Assembly: GCA_002011495.1 (NCBI GenBank)
Contig: MTNR01000026.1
Coordinates: forward strand, 1 to 33,460
Length of the DNA stretch: 33,460 nucleotides
DNA from: Dehalococcoides sp. JdFR-56
GTDB lineage: Bacteria; Chloroflexota; Dehalococcoidia; Dehalococcoidales; RBG-16-60-22
Reading direction: 5' to 3'
Of this stretch, positions 5,541 to 11,946 are shown in pieces. Both the position numbers and the translations under genes were made by a program. The notes beneath the pieces were generated by a model, which did not search any database, had not been told where the DNA came from, and saw only the letters and a program-made list of their open reading frames with translations. Within the stretch, counting starts at the first letter, position 1. Each line of letters starts with the position of its first letter.

Positions 5541-5828
5541 TTGAAAGGCAGTGACGGAGACGAGTAGGGGAGATGGCGGTCTCCCAGCGAGTCTGGTACG
5601 GTGGAAGCAGATGGGACCGGCTCCCTGAAAATCCCTCCCGAGCCGCCAACCGAACGGTGTTAGCGTTTTGGCCTAGCACCCAGTAGACTTGGCCGGTGAC
5701 GTCAGCCGTTATCCGAGACGAGGGCATAAGCTTAGTGCCTTTAAGGAGTGCCCCCTTTTAAAGTGGGGGAAGTAGGGTGGTACCGCGGGTTTAATATTTC
5801 CCGTCCCTAGTGGGCGGGATTCTTATTT
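5541..5828 (+). promoter_or_regulatory. T-box riboswitch, isoleucine-specific
   Basis: The leader has all the parts of a transcriptional T-box: the Stem I start GACGGAGACGAGTA with its AGTA bulge (5563-5566), the specifier region CTGAAAATCCCTCCCGAGC with ATC (Ile) at 5631-5633, the CCGTTATC element before the terminator, and the T-box AGGGTGGTACCGCG at 5774-5787 that pairs with the ACC end of uncharged tRNA. A terminator follows at 5799-5828. Uncharged tRNA-Ile should stabilise the antiterminator and switch on ileS. The specifier agrees with the downstream gene. Confidence 0.93.
5799..5828 (+). terminator. Terminator of the ileS T-box
   Basis: CCCGTCC (5800-5806) pairs with GGGCGGG (5812-5818) around a five-base loop, followed by ATTCTTATTTT. 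The 5' arm would be sequestered by the T-box sequence in the antiterminator state. Confidence 0.8.
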
Positions 5829-10153: not shown

Positions 10154-11521
10154 TTACGTCCCGGGTACCTTGGGCAGGTGGGTCAGCGCCTCCTTTACCT
10201 TCTCTTCAGGATAGGCGTAATCCTGCATCCTGCCGGAGAGGTACTCGTCATAGGCGGCCAGGTCAAAGTGTCCGTGTCCGCTGTGGGCGATGAGGATGGT
10301 CTTTGCTTCGCCTGACTCACGGCACTTGAGGGCCTCGTCAATGGCCACCTTGAGGTCATGACAGGGCTCGGGGCCAGTGATGATGCCCTCGGTACGGGCG
10401 AATTTCACCCCTGCCTCGAAAACGGCGGTTTGGTGCTCTGCCCTGGCCTCAATCAGGCCCAGGTTGTAGAGGTGGCAGATGATCGGCGCCATGCCGTGAT
10501 AGCGCAGCCCACCGGCGTGGACTGGGGGCGGCATGAAAGTGTGCCCCAGGGTGTACATCTTGAGCAGGGGGGTAAGGCCAGCCTCATCACCGAAGTCATA
10601 GGCGTAGGGGCCCTTGGTCAGGGTGGGGCAAGCCTGGGGCTCAACGCAGATGATGCGCAGGTCCGGTTTTTTGCCGCTGAGTTTGTCTCGGAGCCAGGGC
10701 AGGAACTGCCCGGCGAAGTTTGAGCCCCCGCCGACGCAGCCGACGATGATATCTGGGTAGGCATCGGCCATCTCCATCTGCTTTCTGGTTTCCTCGCCGA
10801 TGATGGTCTGGTGGAGCAGAACGTGGTTGAGCACGCTGCCCAGGGAGTAATGGGTATCATCGCGGCTGGCGGCATCTTCCACGGCTTCGCTGATGGCGAT
10901 TCCCAGGCTGCCCGGGCATTCCGGGTCCTTGGCCAGCACGTCACGCCCAGCTTTGGTGTCCTGGCTGGGGCTGGGCACGACCTCGGCTCCCCAGGTCTCC
11001 ATCATGATGCGGCGGTAGGGCTTCTGGTGGTAGCTTACCCTCACCATGTAAACCTTGAGCTCCAGGCCGAAGAACATGCAGCCCATGGCCAGGGCGCTGC
11101 CCCACTGCCCGGCGCCGGTCTCGGTGGTCAGGCGCTTGATGCCTTCCTGTTTGTTGTAGTAGGCCTGGGCCACCGCGGTGTTCGGCTTGTGGCTTCCCGC
11201 CTGGCTGGTGCCCTCGTATTTGTAGAAGATTTTGGCCGGCGTATCCAGCGCCTTCTCCAGCCGGTGTGCCCGGTGCAGCACCGTCGGCCTCCAGGTGCGG
11301 TAGATGGCCTGCACCTCCTCCGGGATCTCGATATAACGTTCCTGGCTCATCTCCTGCTTGATGAGCTCCATGGGGAAGAGGGGCGCCAGGTCATCAGGAG
11401 TCAGCGGCTTGCCGGTGGCCGGATGTAGAGGGGGTGGCAGCGGCTCGGGCAAATCAGGTAGCACGTTATACCAGTGGGTTGGCATGTCCTTTTCGTCAAG
11501 AATGAACTTTGTTCTCTCCAT
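10154..11521 (-). CDS. trpB2: Tryptophan synthase beta-like protein, TrpB2 type
   Basis: A 455-residue fold-type II PLP enzyme of the TrpB2 group, longer than classical TrpB (about 400). The PLP lysine is Lys112 in [22 protein letters not shown] corresponds to the substrate-binding region with the catalytic Glu of TrpB, and the phosphate loop is [10 protein letters not shown]. TrpB2 condenses indole (or indole plus a serine-type donor) to tryptophan and usually works without TrpA, and no trpA is adjacent here. A tryptophan T-box and a Trp-codon leader peptide precede it, which argues for a true role in tryptophan supply. Start ATG 11521 with AAGGAGGTG at 11526-11534. It is a single-gene unit ended by the terminator at 10109-10146. 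Confidence 0.94.
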
Positions 11522-11549: not shown

Positions 11550-11603
11550 CTAGTTCTTTTTCTTGCCCCCGGTAGGGGGCCAGCGCCATGACATGGTGGA
11601 CAT
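11550..11603 (-). CDS. Candidate Trp leader peptide (17 codons)
   Basis: A small minus-strand frame, ATG 11603 to TAG 11550, encodes MSTMSWRWPPTGGKKKN. It has an AGGGAG ribosome-binding site at 11613-11618, nine bases upstream. Codons 6 and 8 are TGG, so Trp starvation would stall a ribosome there. A GCCCCC-TACC-GGGGGC hairpin (11565-11580) begins at the second Trp codon and would be opened by the stalled ribosome. The frame ends 16 bases before the trpB2 ribosome-binding site. Bacillus subtilis rtpA is a known case of a Trp T-box combined with a Trp-codon leader peptide. That the peptide is translated is inferred. Confidence 0.5.
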   Translation of the reverse strand: MSTMSWRWPPTGGKKKN

Positions 11604-11635
11604 GGTTATCAACTCCCTTTTTTTCTTTTCGGCTA

Positions 11636-11946
11636 ATCAAAAAGCCCCCGCCTTGAAGGGGCGGGGGCTCTTCCGCGGTGCCACCCTTCTTGGTCATCTG
11701 GTTTAGGGAGATTGACCATCTCTACCGGGTACGGAGGTGGTGATAAATGCTGCGTCTACCTCGATACCCTGGGATCTGATAACGCTTCCCCTGCGTCAAA
11801 GCCTACTTGCCACTCTTCTGGTAGCTTTCGGTTTGCGGCTCCCAAGTCCATTCAGCCCCGGCGCTGGCATCGGCTCCCACCTTACCCGACTCTCTGGTGC
11901 CCCGCTTTGGAGCTTACTAGTCTTGTTCCCAGCCTTTGCTTATTAT
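11636..11946 (-). promoter_or_regulatory. T-box riboswitch, tryptophan-specific
   Basis: On the minus strand the leader shows the AGTA bulge of Stem I (11915-11918), a specifier region reading CTGAATGGACTTGGGAGCC with TGG (Trp) at 11848-11850, a GCGTTATC element, and the T-box AGGGTGGCACCGCGG at 11673-11687, followed by a strong terminator. Uncharged tRNA-Trp should permit transcription of trpB2. The specifier matches the predicted enzyme. Confidence 0.93.
11638..11669 (-). terminator. Terminator of the tryptophan T-box
   Basis: Perfect 10-bp stem AGCCCCCGCC/GGCGGGGGCT (11660-11669 with 11643-11652), then TTTTT on the minus strand. Confidence 0.88.

Follow-up and report, generated by a model that had tools for sequence, protein, structure and literature searches.

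To our knowledge, one operon, rtpA of Bacillus subtilis, has been described in which uncharged tRNA is sensed twice in series, by a T-box riboswitch and then by a translated leader; there the leader stop codon adjoins the Shine-Dalgarno sequence (SD). As summarised in a later paper (PMC11255114, citing Chen and Yanofsky 2003/2004), the rtpA (yczA) operon carries a T-box and then a leader peptide with Trp codons, so that uncharged tRNA-Trp is sensed at the level of transcription as well as of translation. The locus presented here resembles rtpA in that a Trp T-box and then a short Trp-codon ORF precede a Trp-related gene, and we infer that its two elements would be read in the same way. As far as that summary goes, it differs from rtpA in the gene concerned (trpB2 or trpX), in having one Trp codon placed in a conserved hairpin, in an unfixed distance from stop codon to SD, and in a leader that also occurs without a T-box.

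Two other kinds of system are close enough to matter. Leader peptides with cognate amino-acid codons also lie 5′ of biosynthetic genes in actinobacteria, including the trp attenuators, for example that of C. diphtheriae trpB2A, and the cys leader ORFs, a class that likewise has no visible terminator (PMC1262725; PMC4633059). However, the trp leaders of actinobacteria differ from the trpB2 module: their Trp codons number two or three, a terminator is present, and no T-box takes part. From B. subtilis it is known that downstream mRNA is stabilised by a ribosome that has stalled, or by a strong SD that need not be followed by a start codon (review PMC3997798). In systems of this ermC or STAB-SD type, a ribosome bound at an upstream SD or halted within a leader shields the mRNA whatever the distance, as may happen here, but they are macrolide-responsive or constitutive, unlike the Trp-responsive module proposed here (PMC3997798).

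The T-box itself is not new at this position. The same pairing of T-box and trpB-like gene, in the same bacterial class, was published for Dehalococcoides by Wels et al. (2008, PMC2494555), a paper in which the phrase "leader peptide" is absent and in which we found no leader ORF or hairpin described. A literature search, with many subscription papers outside its scope, returned no earlier description of a trpB2 leader. The preliminary description of this DNA knew of no example of two-layer sensing at a trpB2 gene.

The trpB2 locus of JdFR-56

The window, a stretch of 33,460 nt that makes up positions 1 to 33,460 of contig MTNR01000026.1 of Dehalococcoides sp. JdFR-56, carries on its minus strand a T-box, its terminator, a leader ORF with a hairpin, and trpB2, in that order:

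11654..11939, minus strand: Trp T-box riboswitch (Rfam RF00230, 97.5 bits), specifier UGG at 11850-11848
~11639..11670, minus strand: intrinsic terminator of the T-box, GAGCCCCCGCC..GGCGGGGGCTTTTT, assigned from sequence and fold
11613..11619, minus strand: leader SD, AAGGGAG, assigned from sequence; at this position relatives carry a strong SD, most often AGGAGG
11550..11603, minus strand: putative leader peptide ORF of 17 codons, MSTMSWRWPPTGGKKKN followed by a stop; frame, start-to-W8 spacing and SD kept in ~25 families
11565..11580, minus strand: GC hairpin GCCCCC-UACC-GGGGGC, 6 bp, starting inside Trp codon 8 (fold −13.8 kcal/mol; compensatory changes)
10154..11521, minus strand: trpB2, a TrpB-like PLP enzyme and the regulated gene (NCBIfam NF009057, 739 bits; TIGR01415, 661 bits)

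The T-box score exceeds the RF00230 gathering cut-off of 93 bits, and the specifier, which the covariance-model alignment places in the context UGAA-UGG-AC, bears out the Trp T-box ahead of trpB2 that had been recognised from the sequence alone. The leader ORF runs from ATG at 11603-11601 to TAG at 11552-11550, with Trp at codon 6 (11588-11586) and codon 8 (11582-11580), and its stop lies 28 nt 5′ of the trpB2 start; trpB2 has an SD of its own, AAGGAGGTG, immediately 5′ of the gene. The preliminary description had reported this 17-codon frame with a good ribosome-binding site and a GC hairpin beginning at the second Trp codon. Frame and hairpin were confirmed, the former being conserved; the leader SD in the JdFR-56 genome is weaker than those of its relatives.

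Three T-boxes reach the gathering score in this genome, at ileS, trpB2 and trpE. The trpE T-box heads a canonical trp operon (L065 / L003, G000 C16), with trpE directly next and no leader ORF between. The ileS T-box (window 5542-5811, plus strand, 106.8 bits, specifier AUC) is ordinary, and no leader was seen at the ileS T-boxes examined.

Conservation and variants of the leader

In the Dehalococcoidia, an SD-equipped ORF whose Trp codon, usually codon 8, opens a GC hairpin was found in ~70 genomes from ~25 GTDB families, by our own tally and with related genomes taken as separate in the leader counts. Within the order trpB2 was found in 129 of 156 genomes, and upstream DNA from these loci, joined by 40 loci from other orders of the class, gave 168 usable regions. 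A frame made of SD, start, four to seven sense codons and TGG was present in 54 of the 168, as compared to 1.0 expected from dinucleotide shuffles, while control patterns moved by one or two bases matched 4 and 8 times. With the TGG anchored at the hairpin instead, it was in frame with the nearest SD-start at 49 of 50 loci, and the spacing from start to TGG was 21 nt in 37, 24 nt in 6 and 15 nt in 5; for the tabulated leaders the distance from start to Trp was 21 nt in 44 of 54, 24 nt in 6 and 15 nt in 4. Codon differences between close pairs of leaders (91/65/181 by codon position) show an excess at the third position.

These comparisons make it very probable that the short ORF between T-box and trpB2 is a real translated leader. 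Among the features by which an amino-acid leader peptide is recognised, a conserved short ORF, an SD, a cognate codon and a cognate gene were found. A chance reading frame 3′ of an ordinary T-box could be just as short and could be missing, as this ORF is, from several lineages that retain the T-box; it is refuted by the comparative data, namely the 54 loci against 1.0 expected, the 49 of 50 in frame, and the presence of the leader at trpX and without T-boxes, and we give it practically no weight.

A covariance model built from the SD, ORF and hairpin matched 45 of the order's 156 genomes. Elsewhere in the class it matched members of two more families, and direct reading brought in another two. 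At E <= 1.2e-4 its matches in the 156 genomes lay only at trpB2 or 5′ of trpX, a putative Trp ABC-transporter substrate-binding gene that we presume to be such from the Trp link encoded in its leader and from sequence resemblance. Leaders or remnants without a T-box match at E <= 0.01 were found at eight loci, and at five of them the leader is intact (trpB2 of G085, G054, G052, G412 and G359). The leader can be regarded as an independent unit because it also precedes trpX and stands before trpB2 without a T-box in these five genomes. Conversely, several lineages retain the T-box without the leader, so the loss in T-box-keeping relatives that had been named as telling against a leader was seen, but in some lineages only. 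In L179 and L188, leader and trpX are set apart by an insertion of ~110 nt that contains inverted repeats, and a TATAAT-like sequence lies further downstream.

Outside the class, the leader was also read in two MAGs of Desulfobacterota whose trpB2 is closely related (MFPISRRWPRLGP.. and MSPVSRRWPPVGP..); it probably arrived there by transfer together with trpB2. A different stem-loop, such as GGTCCGTGGCAAAAATTGCTGCGGACTG, was observed as a shared feature 5′ of trpB2 in Desulfobacterota MAGs (L248, L250, L252, L256, L258 and L260-L263). Elsewhere in the phylum the sole match to the leader model (G593, L202) lies inside an apparent priA-like coding sequence and was rejected as chance. A weak match, G061:C22, falls inside a recA-like coding sequence and was likewise set aside.

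The conserved parts of the leader are its SD, its start codon, the hairpin and the Trp located there. The alignment of trpB2 leaders that the preliminary description had proposed upheld the start and one Trp codon, while the second Trp and the position of the stop proved variable. The TGG CGC TGG that it had placed in mid-frame is present in the window (codons 6 and 8), but as a tandem it is not conserved: W6 is not generally kept, a second Trp at position −2 occurs in 17 of 54 leaders, and a run of several cognate codons is absent. Every one of the 54 tabulated leaders has Pro after the hairpin Trp, in part because TGGCC was the search motif, and Trp-Pro at the hairpin could also derive in part from the conserved UGGCCC stem. 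In family f81 (L205, L210) a different stem, GGCGCC, goes with Trp-Arg, so that Trp is kept and Pro lost. These two leaders, together with L081 and L138, show compensatory stem changes; in L138 the Trp codon has become UGA and a paired change retains the stem, whereas its sister L142 has UGG. The hairpin is likewise kept without the Trp codon in L087 (Gln), and Trp is kept where the hairpin is lost in L046 (MAATDKMWRGLDK followed by a stop), L090 and L143. The f81 leaders and these hairpin-less ones support Trp independently of the search motif, and the compensatory changes do so for the hairpin.

In several lineages the place of the leader is taken by still shorter ORFs. Start-stop ORFs, in which a strong SD is followed by ATG-TAG or ATG-TAA, occur at 11 loci against 0.135 expected (L211-L214, L217, L209, L230, L093, L098, L100 and L103), 46-61 nt 5′ of trpB2 and with or without a T-box; for these counts chance was dropped as an explanation, though they come from only about three lineages. 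Two-codon ORFs with a strong SD number 9 against 0.2 expected. A minimal version of the leader, MDWG or MNWG and a stop, appears to be present in culturable Dehalococcoides, as assigned by genome features. Two Desulfobacterota loci (L264, L268) have a perfect SD and hairpin and no start codon.

A stalled ribosome as proposed second sensor and the alternatives

On balance, and with modest confidence, we favour an explanation in which the translated Trp leader would add, after the T-box terminator, a second check on Trp-tRNA charging that is made by the ribosome. As established for T-boxes, uncharged tRNA-Trp would allow RNA polymerase to pass the terminator; a ribosome would then initiate at the leader SD and, as the sequences support, arrive at the conserved Trp, in most leaders codon 8, at the foot of the hairpin. 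When charged tRNA-Trp is scarce the ribosome would stall there and hold the hairpin open, whereas with ample Trp it would pass and terminate and the hairpin would close. We consider such a Trp-dependent stall likely, although a charging sensor would be expected to have more than a single conserved Trp codon; the lineages that keep the hairpin without the Trp codon (L138, L087), or the T-box without the leader, also count against it. That Trp is sensed in two layers, as suggested at the outset, is also the best reading because the Trp leader is conserved in close and distant relatives. In the last and weakest step, the stalled ribosome may form a roadblock by which the downstream mRNA is protected or held open, raising trpB2 output, in the manner of ermC and STAB-SD and with no release of a sequestered trpB2 SD; protection of the mRNA as the output is a tentative proposal by analogy, and we think it somewhat doubtful.

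We prefer a roadblock because the start-stop, two-codon and start-less variants would share a held ribosome, because B. subtilis offers a parallel (PMC3997798), and because RNase J is encoded in the JdFR-56 genome (636 bits). The variants suggest that a ribosome held at one place 5′ of trpB2 is the common denominator. Of the features of an ermC or STAB-SD stabiliser, a strong upstream SD and independence of distance are seen, the distance from leader to gene being unconstrained at 58-293 nt (80-293 nt for trpX).

The same variants bear on two alternatives. If the hairpin were the working part, as a protein-binding site, a pause hairpin or an RNA-processing site, the ORF would merely keep it transiently open and Trp-Pro would be largely stem-derived; the compensatory changes at L081, L138, L205 and L210, and the stems retained together with an SD where the start codon (L264, L268) or the Trp codon (L138, L087) is missing, speak for this. 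It is nevertheless improbable given a frame kept at 49 of 50 loci, a fixed spacing from start to Trp, the third-position bias, the persistence of Trp in leaders that have lost the stem (L046, L090, L143), and a module found solely at trpB2 and trpX. Alternatively, the leader could serve as an upstream landing site, with ribosomes that finish the short ORF reinitiating at trpB2 and Trp supply modulating their delivery, which would suit the recurrence of start-stop and two-codon ORFs at the same place and the strong SD throughout. But at almost every locus trpB2 is equipped with a strong SD of its own, trpX lies up to 268-293 nt away, and a biosynthetic gene that received fewer ribosomes during Trp starvation would be responding in the wrong direction, all of which leaves reinitiation quite unlikely.

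Other alternatives depend on where the leader ends or on what the RNA downstream can pair with. By analogy to rtpA, with which the locus shares its list of parts (T-box and Trp leader peptide), a ribosome terminating under ample Trp would cover the trpB2 SD and an upstream stall under low Trp would free it. The 28-nt gap in the window could accommodate this; across loci, however, the distance from stop to trpB2 start varies between −29 and 78 nt and favours no value, and trpX lies 80-293 nt downstream of the leader. Since the stop position is unconstrained, we rejected occlusion of this type, to which we attach little probability, and with it the parallel in mechanism that had been drawn to rtpA. 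In classical translational attenuation, as the erm-leader-like architecture and possible alternative pairings in L006 and L079 might suggest, a ribosome stalled on the leader would release the hairpin's 3′ arm, which would then pair downstream and uncover a sequestered trpB2 SD. Yet the mean accessibility of that SD was 0.57 free and 0.56 with a modelled stalled ribosome, and across 39 leaders the mean z was −0.13 (SE 0.14) for arm with spacer and 0.05 (SE 0.15) for spacer with SD; no excess complementarity was found between hairpin arm and spacer, between spacer and SD, or of the spacer with itself. As modelled stalls leave the accessibility of the SD unchanged, an ermC-type switch was rejected and is very improbable. 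A role for the hairpin as a terminator was rejected because it has no U-run, and since the spacer downstream also lacks conserved pairing, no classical transcription attenuator was found.

A broader form of the roadblock explanation, which we consider possible but on the unlikely side, would make the SD and the Trp codon at the hairpin foot an independent Trp-responsive module for ribosome parking, whose occupancy controls trpB2 or trpX mRNA, and which is stacked on a T-box or stands alone and has repeatedly shrunk to two-codon or AUG-stop ORFs. If this were true, one site would move between regulated and constitutive ribosome parking. The natural variants, without T-box, without hairpin, without Trp or with a start-stop ORF only, are ready-made mutants for separating the parts. 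The comparison also places an arrangement comparable to the tandem of rtpA, widely conserved, in one bacterial class and at two kinds of Trp gene.
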